Origin: Grifola frondosa | Taxonomy: Eukaryota > Basidiomycota > Agaricomycetes > Polyporales > Grifolaceae | Assembly (NCBI GenBank): GCA_001683735.1 | Contig: LUGG01000001.1 | Coordinates: 1,674,001 to 1,738,000 of the forward strand | DNA: 64,000 bases | Direction: 5' to 3' | Shown here: one piece after another, positions 9,604 to 30,537 of the stretch | How positions within the stretch are numbered: the first letter of the stretch is position 1 | Layout of the letters: every line of letters begins with the position of its first letter | The notes under the pieces: generated by a model | Told to the model about the DNA's origin: nothing | Databases searched by the model: none | Seen by the model: only the letters and a program-made list of their open reading frames with translations | Made by a program: the position numbers and the translations under genes

Positions 9604-11390
<1,787 letters not shown>

Positions 11391-19765: not shown

Positions 19766-20680
19766 ATGAGCATCGTACCTAGTGCGCATCAGGCTGCGAT
19801 AGCCAGCCCGCATCCTTCCTTCTCAGATCGCGACGCGGACATGACACTATGTTCCAAGGATCATGTCCAGTTCCAAGTGCATTCGCTCATCCTCAGGAGG
19901 GCCTCCGGGTGGTTCTCTACACTTCTTACTTTACCCCAGAGCGGTAGTAGCGTAGATGGTGTTCTCCATCTAGACGAATCAGCGGAAGTCCTTACTGGTC
20001 TTCTGACGTTGATTAGCGGCGGTGAGGTCCCATCGCTGACGTCCATCGACTACGCCGAGAGTCTCCTGTATGCTGCAGAGAAATACGAGATGCCGGGCCC
20101 GATATCTTTCATACGCAGTCTCATCATTCACCCCCCGCTTGTTTCCTCTCCGTTGCGTGTATATGGCCTCGCGTGTCGGCGGGGCTGGCTAGAGGAGGCT
20201 AAAATTGCGTCTACCCACTCACTCGGTCTTGACCTCTGTGCACCCGATTCCATCGAACAGCTCAGCAGCATGGATGCGTCTGATCTCGGCAAGCTCATGC
20301 TCCTGCACCGCCGCAGGAGGGATGCGTTCAGGAAGGGCTTAGAGGATCCTGCCTCATTCTCCGCCAACATCTCGCCCTCGCCGTGCACGAAGTGCATCAT
20401 GCTGGTTGAACAGAGTGCATGGCGCGACTTGAAGAATCTTTGGATGGTGGACACCGAGAGCCATCCGTTGGGTGAGACCTTGACGGTCGCAGATATCGTC
20501 GAGAGACCGGGCCTCCTCGCCGTCTTGGGCGCCACCTGTCCCCATTGCGGAGAACCATTGTACTCGAAGGTCGACACACTTCGGCATATGAAGAGACTCG
20601 TAGATGGCTTGCCTAAGGCCGTGGAAGTAAGTGGTTGTGCATACCCGTTGTGCTGCTTGACTAGACCACTTTCACTCTAG
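19766..20680 (+). CDS. BTB/POZ domain protein, family member A
   Basis: A 304-residue frame with an N-terminal BTB/POZ fold (about residues 20-120). It begins DADMTLCSKDHVQFQVHSLI and SGWFSTLL, followed by the family's AESLLYAAEKYEMP helix. The middle is helical (RVYGLACRRGWLEEAKIAS). The C-terminal part carries paired cysteines, CTKC at residues 207-210 and CPHC at 258-261, a possible zinc site also present in the three paralogs at 20,893-28,944. BTB domains dimerise and often recruit Cul3 ligases, but no Cul3 box is obvious. The frame ends at 20,680. GTAAGT just after PKAVE near 20,625 looks like an intron donor, so the real C-terminus may come from a later exon. This member is the most diverged and lies on the opposite strand. 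Confidence 0.75.
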   Translation: MSIVPSAHQAAIASPHPSFSDRDADMTLCSKDHVQFQVHSLILRRASGWFSTLLTLPQSGSSVDGVLHLDESAEVLTGLLTLISGGEVPSLTSIDYAESLLYAAEKYEMPGPISFIRSLIIHPPLVSSPLRVYGLACRRGWLEEAKIASTHSLGLDLCAPDSIEQLSSMDASDLGKLMLLHRRRRDAFRKGLEDPASFSANISPSPCTKCIMLVEQSAWRDLKNLWMVDTESHPLGETLTVADIVERPGLLAVLGATCPHCGEPLYSKVDTLRHMKRLVDGLPKAVEVSGCAYPLCCLTRPLSL

Positions 20681-20892
20681 TTCTAATCATGAGGACATCC
20701 CCGGTATAGTGGATGTATTGATGACTACATGAATAGACTCGATTTCCTAACATTTGTGTGCCATTGTGGTTTTCTTCAGGCTTGTAACTATACAGATCAT
20801 GTTGTAGTGATATGTTACAGGTATGCACAGCAACTATGGACTCGATTCGGGCACGAACTAATCAGGGAACTGAGAAATCACTGTCAGATGAA

Positions 20893-21824
20893 CTAGTCAC
20901 CACAACTCAAGGCAGCACGCACCTCAACGCACCGCGGCAGTTCCTCCACGATGCGTACAATGTTACGCATGGTCAACGCGCGATCATAGTGCATTTTCTG
21001 ACATTCTTTATGGGAGCATCTCGCGCCGAGCACCGTGGCCAGTTCCTCCATATCCATGTATTCACTGCTGAGGTGCTCGCCGATCGAACGCTGATCCATC
21101 TGCTTGGCCCACCGATACTTCAGGCTCTGCCACTCGTGGTGCACCGTCTCGCGGCCGCAGGTGTGGCACATGCCGGGCAGGCGATTGGCGAAGAACTGTC
21201 GTCGTCCATTCCCGCGATGAAGCGGTCTCTCCGCTGCCGGTGCAGCGCGAGGAGCTTCGTTAGGTGTGGCGCCTCGAGGCGGTTCAGCTCAGCCACCGCT
21301 TCCGGTGCGAATAAGTCCAGCGTGAGCGTACGCGTCGACGCGAGCTTCGCCTCGGGTATCCAGCCCATCCTGCATGCGATGCCGTAGACGCGGATCGGAG
21401 AGGCCTCCATAACGGGAGACATGATGGCGAGGCGCACTATCGCGGTAGGCAGGGGCATATCGTACTTCTCGGCGGCGCGCAGGAGTGACTCGAGGTAGTC
21501 GATATTGTTCAGGACCGGGAGGTCCACCCCGCTTACGATAGTGAGGAGCCCAGCGAGCACGTCGGCGTCCTCCTCCATCTGGAGCGCCTCAGAGGTGCAG
21601 GCGGTGCCCTGTGGGAGTGTGAACATTGTGCGGAACCACCCGGACGCGACGATGAGTATGTGCGAGTGTATGCGGAAGGTGGTGTTGTCCTTCGAGCAGA
21701 GCGCGATGTCAGCATTGAGCGAGGCGAAGACGGGGTGTATGTTGCCCTCCATCTTCTCTTCGTTGTCTTCGTTGTCGGTGTGGGTGACTTGGGTGATGGC
21801 GACTACATCTGTTTGGGTGGCCAT
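20893..21824 (-). CDS. BTB/POZ domain protein, family member B (one frame break)
   Basis: ATG at 21,824 starts a BTB protein with DADIALCSKDNTTFRIHSHI, SGWFRTMFTLPQG, YLESLLRAAEKYDMP and RVYGIACRMGWIPEAKLAST. The frame runs into unrelated Ala/Pro/Arg text after GMDDD, near 21,195-21,207. The expected continuation (FFANRLPGMCHTCGRETVHH, then HEWQSLKYRWAKQMD and CSHKECQKMHYD) is one frame over and stops with TAG at 20,893-20,895. A one-base loss in the GAC repeat at the break explains this; an intron does not, since no donor is present. The two younger copies show the same protein continuing in frame. It is either a damaged paralog or a sequence error. Confidence 0.7.
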
Positions 21825-22249
21825 GGCGAGGGAATGGGAGCGGTATCGCTGAATGGCAAGGGCCCTCTATAACAAGAGCTGCAAACATATCAAGGTGCTG
21901 GGTACTGAATTGTGCTTCTTTCCCATTCATCGATAGCGAACCGCGTGTAGAGCTGTCGAACATGTACATAATAGCAGGTATAGTCAAAAACACGACGAGG
22001 AGGAGCAAGGGATGTATGCGGATCTTCCGTGGGTCGCAAGGATAATCTTGATGAACTCTCTTTGACAAGATTCTAAACGGCCTCTTGGAATGAATTAATG
22101 AAGTGTATCGTCCATGCTAATGAAGTAATGGAGAAAGTCCGGAGATTTCACAATTGAGGGCTTTACGGCATCCCGAAGATAACATCAGGTGTGTACAGGT
22201 AGCTATAAGCCTCACTCTCTTGGGCGACTAATCAGAGAACTGACAGATT

Positions 22250-23417
22250 ATGCCGTTAGATGAGAATTGGGAATTTCACGGAGCATCGCGCACCTCAACA
22301 CATCGCGGCAGTTTCGCCACGATACCTACAATATGACGCATGGTCAACGCGCAATCATAATGCATTTTCTGACATTCTTTATGGGGCACCTCGCGCCGAG
22401 CACCGCAGCCAATTCCTCCACATCCATGTATTCGCTGCTGAGGTGCTCGCCGAAAGGCCTCTTATCCATTTGCTTCGCCCATCGATACTTCAGGCTCTGC
22501 CACTCGTGGTGCACCAGCTCGCGCCCGCAGTTGAAGCACTTAGCGGGCCGATGGTTGGCGAAGAACGTGGGACTGTCGAGTGCCGCGATGAAGCGCTCTT
22601 TCCTCTGCCTATGCAGCGCGATGAGCTTCGTCAGGTGGGGCGCGTCAACGCGATCCAGCTCCGCCACCCATCCTGGCGCGAACAGATCTAGCACGAGCGT
22701 GCGCGTGGACGCGAGCTTTGCTTCTGGTATCCAGTTCATTCTGCAAGCGATGCCGTAGACGCGGATTGGGGAGGCATTCACGACGGGAGACATGAGCGCG
22801 ACACGTGCGATCGCGATGGGCAGGGGCATCTCGTATTTCTCGGCGGCGCACAGGAGTGACTCGAGGTAGTCGATATTCTTCAGGTCCGGGCAGCCTGTTC
22901 CGCTCACGATGGCTAGGAGCCCGGCGAGCACGTCGGCGTCCTCCTGCACATGGATGACCTCTATAGTATTCGCGCTGACGCCGGCTGTATCTTGGGGAAG
23001 CGTAAACATTGTGCGGAACCATCCGGACACAGCGACAAGAGTGTGCGAATGTATGCAGAAGGTAGTGTTGTCCTTCGAGCAGAGTTGGACGTCTGCGTCC
23101 GGGGAGGCGAAGGCGGGGTGCGTCTTGGCCGCCATGCTCTCTTCATTACCGGTAAAGACCTGTGTGGTGACGACCTCTGTGGCGACTGCTTCAGTTAAAG
23201 TGGTTGTATGCGTAGCCATCGTGGATTATGAACAGGAGTTTGCATCCGAATAATGATCAGAGACCCCTATCGTATGCTCCTTCGTTGACACCGAGCCGCA
23301 TATAGGGTCTGCGAACACTGTACGTACATATAGTCAGAAAAGAGCAAGACGGTGCACTCGATTTTGCCATGTGCAAAATTTCCATCAGCTTCGAGATCCG
23401 ATGAGAGCGCTATATGC
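22250..23417. repeat. Long direct repeat, left copy (contains BTB member C)
   Basis: This ~1,168 bp block is nearly the same as 27,978-29,154. Both begin ATGCCGTTAGATGAGAATTG and both end at GAGAGCGCTATATGC; outside these points the flanks differ. The block holds a whole BTB gene with its upstream region. To its right, from 23,418, retroelement sequence begins immediately. Differences between copies include a short insertion just upstream of the start codon in the right copy and several single-base deletions. Confidence 0.85.
22276..23219 (-). CDS. BTB/POZ domain protein, family member C (one frame break near the end)
   Basis: From ATG 23,219 the protein reads through a full BTB domain (DADVQLCSKDNTTFCIHSHT, SGWFRTMFTLPQD, YLESLLCAAEKYEMP). 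It continues with RVYGIACRMNWIPEAKLAST, a helical middle and the KCFNCGRELVHHEWQ cysteine pair. The frame slips at the G run at 22,383-22,386, giving CPIKNVRK instead of CPHKECQKMHYD. The right-hand copy has five Gs there and reads on to VEVRDAP and stop. If one G is restored here, the gene would end at 22,276-22,278. About 310 residues. It is the best-preserved of the three minus-strand members. Confidence 0.75.
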
Positions 23418-24450
23418 GGAGGTCTCGAAGGCGAACATGGGAGCCGTCGAGGGGACTCGGGAGTTGGCGTTCTGGTGGTGACGAAGGGCTGTGAGCGGGG
23501 ATGTTGGTTCGTCGTTCCCCGTGGCAATGATATCTGCGCCGGCATGTTTCGTGGTTTTTGTCCACGGGATGTGAAATACGGCGTACTCTGCTTGTCCGAG
23601 GAGTTTCCGATAGCGTATTCCGGCGGACTTTGCGACGTGTTTGTCGGCGTCGAACGTGTTTGGTGACGGGATCACAAGTTCACCGAGGCTACGTGTTTTG
23701 TTAATATTATTCTAATGATTACGGAGCATGCATACCGGCGGCAGCACCAGAAGGCAGTGCACGCAATGGCGTATACCGCTGCGTCGAACGAGTTAGTCAG
23801 GTGAAGGCGGTCCGGAGTGCGTGCATGTGTTCTAGTGTTACCGGTGGCCTCTTTGCCTTCTTCGCGGGCTCATTTTTCAGCGCGCCGGTACAGGTGACTC
23901 TGAGCATTTTGTTTCCTTGCCATGGCGCGCCGTTGATTGCGTGCCAGAAACTGAGGCCAGCTAGCCAGTTGTCTATCGTGGTTCTGGCTACGGCGCCGCT
24001 CCACTTTGCGATGAAGGCTGCGAGTAGAGGTTCCGGTGCAGGCATGCGTAGCGTTTCGGGAATAGATAGGCCGTCGCAGAACTGTGTGAACCGAAGTAGG
24101 CCTGCGCCGTAATTTTTCTGCGTTTTGATATCTAGAGACGAGAGCATTACGTTGTATAGTGTAACGGAGGCTTCGAGTGAGAGAAGTGAGCTTGACGTGC
24201 GACGGAATTCTGTTGCAAATGGGGTGGACCAGCGTGCAAGGCGGTCTCGGGCAAGAACATGGGGACGAAGGTTGGATGGCAGGATGGTGTTGTTTTCTTT
24301 TGGTTTCCGAGGCTTTCGTCTGTTCGAAATTCGCGGCGAAGAAGTTTTGGCCACCGCACCATTCCTGGTAGCTACTGATTCCTTCTTTCGAGCAGACGCG
24401 CTCGCACTTGCGAGCGCTGTTTCCGGTTGGGATGATCTAGGCATGCACAA
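23385..24450 (-). CDS. DIRS-element tyrosine recombinase, C-terminally truncated
   Basis: Starts around ATG 24,450 with a basic N-terminus, then a SAM-like core-binding domain: DIKTQKNYGAGLLRFTQFCD, PLLAAFIAKWSGAVARTTID and WLAGLSFWHAINGAPWQG. The frame changes near 23,800 (AFT-stop versus HLTNSFDAAVYAIACTAFW). A typical intron from about 23,688 to 23,736 then joins CCRR to LGELVIPSPNTFD, which contains the first catalytic Arg (RLGEL). EYAVFHIPWTKTTK and STAPMFAFETS follow. The last residues before the TGA at 23,385-23,387 are encoded by the neighbouring direct repeat, so the ORF is chimeric. The HxxR box and tyrosine nucleophile are absent, so catalysis is not expected. Confidence 0.75.
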
Positions 24451-24494
24451 TAAACGGGATTAGCTCTGGTGGGAGCGTAGTAAGGGGAGGGAGT

Positions 24495-26449
24495 CTAGTC
24501 ATTGAGGGTCCGGTTCGCCGCGGACACCGGGTCCGCCTTGTTGACTTTCGTGTTCACATATGTTAGCTTGAATGAGAGGTTGAGTGACATGCCGATGACT
24601 CCCGCACGCCGGATGGAGTCATTTACTTGGAAATTTCTGCTACGTCCTCGGGTGAAGGCGCCTACCACTCCTTCATTGTCTCCTCGAATGAGAATGTCGG
24701 CGTTGGTTGCCCGAGTTCTTCAACATATCGGATGGCGAGTTCCACTGCTACCATTTCTGCCCAGCCGATGTCTCGTCCGCAAGCCTTCCATTCTGCAAGC
24801 GGCAACTTCCATCTCCATGCGGCCCAGCGTTCGCTTACTATGACTCCGATGCCCCAGTTTGTTGACGCGTCGACCCAGATTCCGAGGTCCTTCAGCTCGC
24901 CGCGAGGCGTTAGTGAACGCGTCACGCCTGGCAGGTTCAGTGTGTTCTGCCACCATTTGAGGTCTGAAATGACTGAGCGCGGGGATAACGTGTCGCATGT
25001 TTATTGGGGAAAGCTGCAATGAACGCGCAAAGGTTCGTGAGGTACGAGCGCCTTGCGGGTATACGAAGGTGATGTGGGAGAGCGTCCCGTTGATCGACAT
25101 CGCATCCTTCTGTGAAGTGCGCTCGCGCGCTATGTGGTCTAGGAAGAGCGTGAGTTTCGTGAGATACTTCTGGCGCTTTGTTTCGGGCAGGACACTGTGC
25201 GGTTCCACACGTCCCAGAGGAAGCCCAGGTATATTCCTGTGAAGGCGTGTTCCGTGCACTTCGTTTGATGCCACGGACACCCAGAGGCTTGGTGATGCGG
25301 AAAATGTCTTGTATGGTGTGGCTGTAGGTGAATGAATTCGGTGAGTTTCCGATCGTCTTAGGAAACCGAAAGTTGAACAGGTCGTCGACCCACTTCAGGT
25401 TCGGACCCATCTCGTTGGCGTCGAGAATATCTACGGTTGCGTCCATAGGTTCTCCTTGCAAGCCTACGCCCGATGTGATTCCAAACGGCACTGTGTGATC
25501 AATGTAGAAGACTCCTTCTTCGCATTGTATTACAATGAAGGCTTTGTGTGCGGGAAGGACGGGGAGGTTCCTGAACGCTGAGTCGATGTCAAGGGATGCC
25601 ACCTGCGTGCCGCGCGGAGCGACCGATATCTGTGGGTGTGTCAGTTCCAACGCTACGTTGCGATGAACTTCTGATAGATGAATAATTATATTCTTTGCGA
25701 CCGTCAAGGCGGGCATGTTCCGCTCCGGTATGCTCATGCAGGCTCAACCGTCAAGGCGGGCATTTCCGCTCGGGTTTGCCGCGAACCGTCCAGGTGGGCA
25801 TGTTCCACTCGGGTTCGCAGCGCTGATCGTCAAGGCGGGCAGCTCTCCGCTCGGATGCAGCAAATTCTTTCCGCAGTAAGGAAAGACGACGTACAATTTC
25901 CGCTACTTGCGCGGCAGTGCCCCATTTCGTGGGGAAATCCTCTGAGTTGATCTGACTATTGACGGATATCCCGTTCTCGTCTTTGAATGAGCAGTTTTGT
26001 ACTAGACGGAGTTTGCCTCTTGATCCGGCCTTTTCTATGACGGCTAATGGGGATGAGACGAAATTGCTGCCAAGAATCTTTTCCACCTCGCTGCGGGTGT
26101 ACGGGCCAGTCATGCGCCCGAGTTCGACCTGTTCTGCTATGTATGACTTGATGAAATCTAAGTTTTCGATGCCGGATGCATGATTTGCGGGTGTGAAGGT
26201 TTTCGGGATGGGATTGAGGTCACCGATGGGGAAACCGAATCGTATTCTATGAGGTAGGGAAGGATGCAGATCAAGAAGTTGTAAGCGACGCAGGGTGGAT
26301 TCGAACTCGTCCGCGTCGTAGGGCGTGATAATGCGGTCACGCTCTGATGCACCTCTTATCGTTGCCGTGATGCGTGGCGGAGCCGCAGAAGGCGCAGATG
26401 TGGGCGTCGGTGCTTGTGCAGTGTTTGGATCGGCAGGGGGTTTGTCCAT
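24495..26449 (-). CDS. DIRS-element reverse transcriptase-RNase H polyprotein
   Basis: From about ATG 26,449 the protein has a Pro/Ala/Thr-rich leader, then RT blocks: IRFGFPIGDLNPIPKTFTP, SPLAVIEKAGSRGKLRLVQN, and after an intron GTQVASLDIDSAFRNLPV, VPFGITSGVGLQGEPMDA and KWVDDLFNFRFP. The last carries the paired Asp of the RT active site. A thumb-like SINGTLSHITFVYPQG follows, then an RNase H-like part with IWVDASTNWGIG, CGRDIGWAEMVAVE and ILIRGDNEGVVGAF. It stops with TAG at 24,495-24,497. Several frame changes occur downstream of the RT core, some probably introns. The intron at 25,630-25,894 (GTACGT...CACAG) joins QVAEI to ISVAPRGTQ in frame. The start overlaps the end of gag in another frame. 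Confidence 0.78.
25701..25855. repeat. Four-copy ~40 bp minisatellite inside the RT intron
   Basis: Four imperfect copies of a unit like GTCAAGGCGGGCATGTTCCG begin near 25,701, 25,748, 25,786 and 25,827 (spacings 47, 38 and 41 bp). They all lie within the predicted intron 25,630-25,894, so they do not interrupt the RT protein once spliced. Confidence 0.75.
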
Positions 26450-27796
26450 AGATGTTGAATGCGATGCAGATTTCTTTTCTTGTGGCTGCGCTGACGAGTT
26501 TTTGGTCGGACCAGGTGGAGAAGGCTGGTTGACCGTTGGGAAGCGTGGTTCTACCGCACTCGTTGGCTCTGTGCCCGCTCTGCGCGCAGATGAGGCAGAG
26601 GGTCGGCGGACTTGGACGATCTGCCTTGTTGAAAGGGCCGTGACGAGTTGGACGGTGCCTGCCTCGAGTTCTCCGTTATCGAATTGTAATTCCTGTTATC
26701 GTTTCTGTCATACGACTGGAAGCGATTAGCGCTGTTGAAACGGGGAGTGGGGTTACGTAGCTCGGTTCGTGCGTTGAACTCCTCGTTCACGGCCATTCGG
26801 ACGTCTCGGAATTTGTTGACGTAGGCGTCCGAGCCGACGGTGAACGGTGCCTTCGTGGCGAAGTAGTTTGCACGTACTTCGATGTCGAACCTCAGGATGA
26901 CGGGGAATAGCTTCTTGAAGTCTTTCGTACCACACAGCCACTGGAGATGATTTTCGAAGCGCCGTACTATCGCAGTTTCACAGGTGCGTTCCAGTACTGG
27001 GAGGAAGTTGGCCCAGGCATCGCGCCAGTCCTCTGCCTGCATGTCGTCTTCTCTCGGCCATGGTTGACGTCGATTACTTCCTTCTTGATTCCGCTGGCGT
27101 TGTGTAGTTTTGTGTAGCTGATTTTTCCGGGGTTGCTTCGCATTTCGTGTATGGCGTCCGAGGTGCAGAGTGTGAGGGGAAGGTGGAATCCATTCGCAAG
27201 TAGAGCGAGTAGCGGCGGTGGCGCTTGCGCTGCGCGTTGGTCGAACAAGTCCGTCTGCAGTTCGGATCCGATGGTGAAGAATGGTGTACTAGGTGGAACT
27301 TCGCAGTCAGTTTTTGTTTGGGAGGTATTTGGGATGTCACCAGTGTCCGCTTCGTTGAGAAGCTTGAATGCGATTTTTCTGGATTCTGGTGTGAGTGCAA
27401 GTACTTCGGCGAGTAGTTCTCGAGCCGCTCTCTTCGCCGCTCGGGGTGCCTCTTCGCCGTTAATGTCTTCTTCGACGTCTCCGGAGTTCTTCCGCTTCGA
27501 ACCCGAAGTTGGGGACTGACTCCTCGACGTTTCTGGGTTCCCATTTCCGCGTCGTCGCCTGATCCGGTTGGTAACAACTCTTCATTGTCGCTGACTTCTT
27601 CTTCGCCTAGAGCTCTCCTAGTCGCCCGTTGTTGGTTACGTGCGTCGCGGAGTTTGTTTTCCGCGAACTCGGCTGGCTGGTCGCCTCGAGGCGGGGGCGT
27701 CTCTCCGTTGGACTGAGATCCAGAATCATCAGCGCCAAAGGCTGTGAGTTCTTTACCCCAACCCATCGGGTCTGTTGTTACGAGGCATATGTTCAA
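26337..27796 (-). CDS. DIRS-element Gag-like protein with zinc knuckle
   Basis: The element's first gene. From about ATG 27,796 it runs through an acidic/Arg-rich region (GDQPAEFAENKLRDARNQQR). A frame change near 27,500 leads to ESRKIAFKLLNEADTGD and PPPLLALLANGFHLPLTL. Then comes a conserved helical block: WRDAWANFLPVLERTCETAI, HLQWLCGTKDFKKLFPVILR and RFDIEVRANYFATKAPFTVG. The end carries a Cys/His cluster, TDAHICAFCGSATHHG then KRC, typical of nucleic-acid-binding Gag tails. It stops with TGA at 26,337-26,339 and overlaps the RT start by about 110 bp. The order and zinc cluster are those expected of a DIRS Gag; the exact splice path is uncertain. Confidence 0.6.
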
Positions 27797-27930
27797 ATCG
27801 GGTGTAATCTAACGAGCGGGAGCTCCGAAAAAGCGAAAATACTTAGGAACGGGCTGAGATGCGGTGGGGAAAGGATGAAGCGCGAGACGCGCAAGTCCTT
27901 ACCGCATTCAGCCCTACGCTTACTAAGCAT

Positions 27931-27974
27931 TAGTTTGACTTAGGTGCTCGCAGGCTCGCGCCTTAATCAAACTA
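27931..27974. repeat. Imperfect hairpin at the retroelement edge
   Basis: TAGTTTGACTTAGGTGC (27,931-27,947) pairs with the reverse complement of the sequence ending at 27,974 (TAGTTTGATTAAGGCGC), 14 of 17 positions. The loop is about 10 bp. It sits three bases from the junction with the right-hand direct repeat and may be part of the element's terminus. Confidence 0.5.
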
Positions 27975-27977
27975 CAC

Positions 27978-29154
27978 ATGCCGTTAGATGAGAATTGGGA
28001 ATTTCACGGAGCATCGCGCACCTCAACACATCGCGGCAGTTTCGCCACGATACCTACAATATGACGCATGGTCAACGCGCAATCATAATGCATTTTCTGA
28101 CATTCTTTATGGGGGCACCTCGCGCCGAGCACCGCAGCCAATTCCTCCACATCCATGTATTCGCTGCTGAGGTGCTCGCCGAAAGGCCTCTTATCCATTT
28201 GCTTCGCCCATCGATACTTCAGGCTCTGCCACTCGTGGTGCACCACTCGCGCCCGCAGTTGAAGCACTTAGCGGGCCGATGGTTGGCGAAGAACGTGGGA
28301 CTGTCGAGTGCCGCGATGAAGCGTCTTTCCTCTGCCTATGCAGCGCGACGAGCTTCGTCAAGTGGGGTGCGTCGACGCGATCCAGCTCCGCCACCCATCC
28401 TGGCGCGAAAAGATCCAGCATGAGCGTGCGCGTGGACGCGAGTTTTGCTTCTGGTATCCAGTTCATCCTGCATGCGATGCCGTAGACGCGGATTGGGGAG
28501 GCATTCACGACGGGAGACATGAGCGCGACGCGCGCGATCGCGATGGGCAGGGCATCTCGTATTTCTCGGCGGCGCACAGGAGCGACTCGAGGTAGTGGAT
28601 ATTCTTCAGGTCCGGGCAGCCTGTTCCGCTCACGATGGCTAGGAGCCCGGCGAGCACGTCGGCGTCCTCCTGTACATGGAGGACCTCTATGGTATTCGCG
28701 CCCGCGCCGGCTGTATCTTGGGGAAGCGTAAACATTGTGCGGAACCATCCGGACACAGCGACAAGAGTGTGCGAATGTATGCAGAAAGTAGTGTTTCCTT
28801 CGAGCAGAGTGCGACGTCTGCGTCGGGGGAGGCGAAGGCGGGGTGCGTCTTGGCGGCCATGCTCTCTTCATTACTGGTAAAGACCTGTGTGGCGACGACC
28901 TCGGTGGCGACTGCTTCAGTTAAAGTGGTTATATGCGTAGCCATTATGGATGTGAACGGCTAATGTCTCCTCGAGCGGACAAACAGGAGTTTGCATGCGA
29001 ACAATGATCAGAGACCCCTATCGTATGCTCCTTCGTTGACACCGAGCCGCATATACGGTCTTCGAACACTGTACATATAGTCAGAAAAGAGCAAGATGCA
29101 CTCGATTTTGCCGTGTGCAAAATTTCCATTAGCTTCGATGAGAGCGCTATATGC
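27978..29154. repeat. Long direct repeat, right copy (contains BTB member D)
   Basis: This ~1,177 bp block mirrors 22,250-23,417 in the same orientation and with the same endpoints (ATGCCGTTAG at the left, GCTATATGC at the right). It is nearly identical except for a ~25 bp extra stretch upstream of the BTB start near 28,950-28,980 and scattered substitutions or one-base deletions. Confidence 0.85.
28004..28944 (-). pseudogene. BTB/POZ domain protein, family member D (four one-base deletions)
   Basis: Starts at ATG 28,944 and follows member C almost residue for residue, but needs four frame corrections. Relative to the left copy one base is missing near 28,794 (after ALCSK), 28,549-28,552 (GGG instead of GGGG), 28,323 (GCGTC instead of GCGCTC) and 28,245 (CACCACTC instead of CACCAGCTC). 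Its last part is intact, including the five-G run at 28,111-28,115 that member C lacks, and ends VEVRDAP with TGA at 28,004-28,006. All four differences are deletions. Either this copy is decaying or the repeat was poorly resolved in the assembly. Confidence 0.75.
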
Positions 29155-29368
29155 TGTGAACAAGCATCATGTTAAGATGAACTGCGTTTGTGCTCAACGA
29201 TAAGGTCAACAAAGAAACTTGGGGAAAGTCCGGAGATTCGGTACGGCTACTAGATAACGCAGCAAGAGCTCAGCAGAAGATCTATATATTGGCCGATTAT
29301 AGTTGTGTACGGACACCCTTTTTGCATTAATCTCCTGTAGATTCTATCTCATCATCCCATCGAAGCGC

Positions 29369-30537
<1,169 letters not shown>

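Follow-up and report, generated by a model that had tools for sequence, protein, structure and literature searches.

Diverged direct copies of a BTB gene on either side of a 3'-truncated Ngaro-type retrotransposon in Grifola frondosa

Results

Layout of the locus

The window, i.e., the whole stretch of DNA analyzed here, comprises 64,000 nucleotides and corresponds to C1:1,674,001-1,738,000 of a Grifola frondosa assembly (39.06 Mb, 64 contigs). Genes are referred to by locus tags with the prefix A0H81, which we take to be that of strain 9006-11. A section of PMC10820438 gives GCA_001683735.1 as the assembly of strain 9006-11. The locus contained two direct copies of a block carrying a BTB gene (22,250-23,417 and 27,978-29,154), placed around 4,560 bp (23,418-27,977) that are largely occupied by a retroelement, and all ends were sharp. 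An older paralogue (termed C) and a fourth BTB gene that is distant in sequence (19,766-20,680) were located beside the blocks. The following features were distinguished:

20,893-21,824, minus strand: BTB paralogue C (A0H81_00719), which is older than the blocks, shares about 80% identity with them and served as outgroup
22,227-22,243: stretch in the left flank (L), colinear with and 16/17 identical to 20,857-20,873 downstream of paralogue C; the join of L to the left block is taken as the unoccupied arrangement
22,250-23,417, minus strand: left block (b1), with a BTB gene (A0H81_00722, ATG at 23,219), 198 bp upstream of it and its downstream end
23,418: illegitimate junction between left block and element, with one extra G and no microhomology seen
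23,419-27,977, minus strand: 3'-truncated Ngaro-type retrotransposon with an exact 5' end, the last 1,448 bp missing relative to a copy on contig C8
23,689-23,735, minus strand: 47-bp GT...AG intron in the recombinase gene, precisely absent from the C8 copy
27,831-27,977, minus strand: 147-bp terminal repeat A1, with the same sequence as both A1 and A2 in C8
27,978-29,154, minus strand: right block (b2), with a BTB copy (A0H81_00727, ATG at 28,944) whose frame is broken by four one-base gaps
29,220-29,238, plus strand: stretch in the right flank (R), TGGGGAAAGTCCGGAGATT, 276 bp upstream of b2 and 18/19 identical to 22,129-22,147; the join of b2 to R is taken as the native upstream arrangement

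Elsewhere in the window, at 9,802-11,321, tandem 228-bp repeats, some of them spaced 281 bp, encode ubiquitin repeats; we take this to be an ordinary polyubiquitin gene, probably with introns.

The two BTB blocks

The blocks were 1,168 bp (left) and 1,177 bp (right) long and had the same orientation, and both started with ATGCCGTTAG and ended with CTATATGC. Their coordinates, their ends and the length of the intervening DNA agreed with the initial annotation. That annotation had also assigned a whole BTB gene to each block. Of the two BTB frames, only the left one was open (291 aa, with a one-base gap at 22,382 that shifts the C-terminus), and its protein had a 99% match over 98% to A0H81_00722 of G. 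frondosa. When the one-base gaps were polarized using paralogue C as outgroup, four were assigned to b2 and one to b1. In paralogue C itself, the frame was also broken within the cysteine-rich C-terminal region, where a single base was missing in comparison with the blocks. In the genome search, the block sequence matched its two copies and paralogue C only, and neither the C8 copy of the element nor a relative of the element at 3,046 kb on C1. A retrocopy (processed-gene) origin of a block was not favored, since the blocks carry 198 and 210 bp upstream of the ATG.

Alignment of the blocks revealed 40 substitutions over 1,150 aligned sites (3.5%). These were unevenly spread, with none in the 370 sites at the left end and all 40 in the remaining 780, where 29 were found in the rest of the coding part (596 sites) and 11 upstream of it (184 sites). 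A substitution-free run of 370 bp has a chance of about 2e-7 (0 of 200,000 permutations). In the coding part, the differences were synonymous in 17 of the 27 differing codons, gapped codons excluded. Upstream of the gene, the blocks were further distinguished by indels (26, 4, 3 and 7 bases).

The retroelement between the blocks

A search of the assembly with the whole region resulted in at least nine matches, one of which was a near-identical copy on C8 (C8:1,447,648-1,453,620). This sister element is longer (5,973 bp), defines the true ends, and has no BTB block at its termini. It showed the order A1-ORFs-B1-A2-B2 with split direct repeats of 147 (A1), 407 (B1), 147 (A2) and 405 bp (B2), whereas the window copy keeps A1 only. 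The A1 repeat of the window copy stops at 27,977, and in C8 both A1 and A2 stop at the corresponding base; this terminus is followed by GC in C8 (at A1 as well as A2) and by AT in the window. In the stretches fetched around the C8 copy and the C1:3,046-kb relative, no long duplicated flanks were seen, only short local repeats, and these sequences do not appear to indicate a family of gene-bearing elements. The initial annotation had noted that the arrangement mimics an LTR element. The block-element-block appearance is indeed present and seems accidental: the C8 sister has terminal repeats of its own and lacks the BTB block, and the blocks are therefore rejected as LTR-type termini of the element.

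The C8 copy contained a 503-aa ORF, a presumed RT/RNase H region in two frames and, directly after the latter, a 427-aa recombinase ORF. Based on its position and a CCHC-like motif we take the 503-aa ORF to be gag-like, and the RT region presumably carries a WVDD-like motif. The Pfam RT and RNase H models gave no match in the RT-region ORFs of the window copy, the C8 copy or a relative on C7. A Sparassis crispa protein that is 63% identical to the RT-region protein (SCP_0205780) has a UniRef name beginning with 'Reverse transcriptase domain', and the protein with the next number, SCP_0205790, is a relative of the recombinase. The Pfam Phage_integrase model matched the 427-aa ORF below the cut-off only (E 0.041; 14.1 vs 27.1 bits). 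Relatives of the recombinase amounted to 448 proteins at E <= 0.001 among 7,997 scored candidates; the 120 relatives listed included many from polypores, as well as proteins deposited as Tyr recombinase domain-containing.

We take R234, H356xxR359, W382 and Y390 to be the motif residues of the C8 recombinase, with Y390 as the presumed nucleophile; only R234 remains in the window copy, which lacks 103 C-terminal recombinase residues including HxxR, GGW and Y390. As described in the initial annotation, the recombinase frame of the window copy runs into the left block. After the 47-bp intron it enters the block, which encodes its last ten codons (AYSALIGSRS), as in the deposited A0H81_00723.

The element had initially been described as a truncated DIRS element. 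The truncation stands; DIRS sensu stricto was rejected, because the terminal repeats of the C8 copy are direct and not inverted and the methyltransferase (Dam) model gave no match in the four C8 ORFs scanned. We assign the element to Ngaro because its split direct repeats agree with the definitions given in sections of PMC3783388, where Ngaro is the group reported for Dikarya. The Ngaro repeat order is described likewise in passages of PMC4157794 and PMC8547959.

The window and C8 copies of the element differed by 9 substitutions over 4,510 sites (0.2%), of which at least five were located within eight bases of a gap. Short gaps were more frequent, with 13 in the window copy and 2 in the C8 copy, in addition to the single 47-bp stretch. 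A unique neighbor gene, which we take to be a member of the cytochrome-b5-reductase-like family, has a probable one-base gap near 29,662, as judged from its translation by eye. Because gaps outnumber substitutions and because of this additional probable gap, base errors in the assembly are suggested. The frameshifts in the window element and in the BTB copies may be such errors and are not to be taken as proof of pseudogenes.

An intron in the recombinase gene

The 47-bp stretch that distinguishes the two copies reads GT...AG on the coding strand and interrupts the codon of the second arginine in an RRLGE motif. In the C1:3,046-kb relative (∼70% identical), a 49-bp GT...AG stretch was found at the same position and in the same phase (C1:3046221-3046269), and the deposited A0H81_00723 is spliced at the 47-bp intron (annotated splice, P0057). 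The intron was present in two of the three close copies, and in the match table many more distant matches appeared uninterrupted at this position. The simplest reading of these sequences would be a loss in C8 via spliced RNA, which would imply one earlier gain and a loss in C8 only. The intron pair would then be a natural sign of Ngaro movement through spliced RNA. Introns in such elements have been reported before; no paper on introns in Ngaro elements was found among the titles and abstract openings of the best-ranked papers listed, and the word 'intron' was absent from the two DIRS overviews that were text-searched.

Native flanks of the BTB copies

The flanks of the blocks were compared with those of paralogue C. 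The similarity of L to the sequence downstream of C was reached by 0 of 300 shuffles, compared to 270 of 300 for the end of the element. With three mismatches allowed, the L pattern matched by chance 0.3 times per shuffled window, and two matches were attained in 3 of 100 shuffles; because such chance matches occur, it is the colinearity that carries the weight for L. On the opposite side, TGGRGAAAGTCCGGAGATT is located upstream of both paralogue C (at 305 bp) and b2 (at 276 bp). When R was compared with the sequence upstream of C, 1 of 300 shuffles attained the observed local score, compared to 235 of 300 for the inner end of the element. Against the same sequence, the upstream part of b2 together with R scored 157, where the largest of 200 shuffles scored 116.5. 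A 15-base core had two exact sites in the genome (upstream of C and of b2) and two more at one mismatch; the reversed-pattern control gave five matches at up to one mismatch. The non-coding stretch at 22,129-22,147 and 29,220-29,238 has a palindromic TCCGGA core and is conserved ∼300 bp upstream of two BTB genes. It is lost from the left block, as is everything else beyond 198 bp upstream of the left gene.

As L matches the downstream side of C and R its upstream side, the native flanks of a single gene are divided between the two copies. Judged from these similarities, the L-b1 and b2-R joins are taken as old, and the A1-b2 and b1-element joins as new.

Discussion

Order of events

Divergence between the blocks was about 17 times higher than between the element copies (40/1,150 vs 9/4,510, Fisher p 3.6e-20), and the 370-bp tract did not differ from the element copies (0/370 vs 9/4,510, Fisher p 1). 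Since the insertion is no earlier than the split from the C8 lineage (0.2%) and the blocks differ by 3.5%, most of the block divergence predates the insertion, and the blocks must have been alleles or paralogues by then.

The initial annotation had offered a tandem duplication whose junction captured the retroelement, and in its simple form this proposal fails at the block divergence. To survive, it would require that a crossover or conversion with a diverged allele followed: a break at one BTB gene, with long staggered ends, would have been filled in and a truncated element copy taken up, resulting in a giant target-site duplication, and the 40 differences would have been acquired in the later exchange. 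The 370-bp tract, which is as similar as the element copies are, speaks for such a course, and a section of PMC7407515 describes break-repair insertions in rice that are accompanied by tandem duplication. A giant target-site duplication, whose flanks are no older than the insertion, is compatible with these 370 sites and not with the other 780, and the exact A1 end would have to be luck. We consider this course improbable.

The second proposal of the initial annotation, a duplication by recombination around an insertion, fits best. We tentatively regard the locus as the scar of an unequal exchange between an insertion-bearing and an insertion-free chromosome, which falls short of a probable explanation; such an event would be neat but not unheard-of. 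On one haplotype, which would have had a single BTB gene, a Ngaro element would have inserted directly downstream of this gene. The exact 5' terminus of the element abuts the block, while entry by means of its own recombinase, and the presence of only one BTB gene at that time, are what we infer for this step. The two haplotypes would then have been fused, either by an illegitimate exchange or when a break was repaired with the partner chromosome, such that the BTB gene of the empty haplotype became linked by its upstream end to an internal position in the element of the filled one. This join has no microhomology and the 3' part of the element is missing; the filled and empty haplotypes would be the putative partners. 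The product would be L-BTB-truncated element-BTB-R, in which the left copy represents the empty site and the right copy the filled half-site. The two BTB copies would be former alleles and hence already diverged.

Unequal exchange is preferred because two events suffice, whereas three are needed if an older tandem pair underwent a deletion. It is also supported by the block divergence of 3.5%, which is near the between-strain level of 3%, as an ANI of 97% between strain CH1 and GCA_001683735.1 is given in a passage of PMC12028448. Against it, the blocks diverge more than the ∼1% heterozygosity implied by a passage of PMC11340509, in which resequenced G. frondosa strains have on average 376,290 heterozygous SNPs on a 39.28-Mb reference; this figure slightly lowers the odds of the exchange and slightly raises those of the older tandem pair. 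In addition, shared ancestry or conversion has to be assumed for the 370-bp run, one of 300 shuffles attained the R-side similarity to C, and no recombinase core match was seen because the bases that follow the terminus differ between C8 and the window. Older tandem paralogues would, moreover, look the same as former alleles.

With such paralogues, a full element would have inserted downstream of the right gene, and the 3' end of the element, the intervening spacer and the sequence upstream of the left gene would have been lost in a single deletion. In favor of this course, BTB genes form an array at the locus, the block divergence that mostly predates the insertion exceeds average heterozygosity, and the proportion of synonymous differences is as between long-kept genes. 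However, this course takes one event more (duplication, insertion, deletion) and also conversion for the substitution-free tract, and we hold it to be unlikely.

An assembly artefact, in which two dikaryon haplotypes were joined end to end and the second starts inside the element, would have a geometry identical to that of the exchange. The frequent short gaps in the window element relative to C8 make the consensus quality seem poor, and neither 'monokaryo' nor 'homokaryo' was found in the two G. frondosa papers examined for these terms. However, the flank probes (8.0 kb right, 7.9 kb left) matched once each in the assembly and no haplotig was seen there, and the probable one-base error in the unique neighbor gene indicates that poor consensus is not confined to this piece. 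Overlap-free joins are unusual for long-read assemblers, which would argue further against a misjoin if such an assembler was used. We give this explanation little credence. It is highly improbable that the truncated element and a BTB gene formed an extrachromosomal circle that entered an empty chromosome by homologous integration at its BTB gene, i.e., that a Ngaro element captured and re-delivered a host gene.

Consequences

The element and one of the BTB copies could be lost through homologous recombination between the blocks, which the 370-bp tract would facilitate. Excision would have to proceed in this way because the window copy lacks most of the recombinase catalytic residues. If the unequal exchange is correct, one stretch would preserve both the empty site and the filled half-site, together with the native flank on either side, and the order of insertion and duplication could be tested in other strains. 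It would also show how two host-gene alleles become linked duplicates as a result of a recent retroelement insertion, the left one having lost its distal upstream region.

Comparison with known systems

Unequal exchange between transposon-bearing and empty homologues gives a block-element-block arrangement with a native flank on each outer side. The layout observed here is the same, with the difference that one join is non-homologous and is located inside the element. The C8 copy resembles the Ngaro elements of Agaricomycotina as portrayed in sections of Muszewska et al. (2013; PMC3783388) in its A-pol-B-A-B repeats, its putative RT/RNase H gene, its tyrosine recombinase gene and the lack of a detected methyltransferase, whereas the window copy differs from them in being 3'-truncated and in retaining A1 only. 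A direct duplication around an insert is shared with the patch-mediated break repair of rice (Vaughn and Bennetzen, cited in PMC7407515), for which a passage of that paper gives insertions of 10-1000 bp; at the present locus, the duplicated blocks are 1.17 kb long and diverged.
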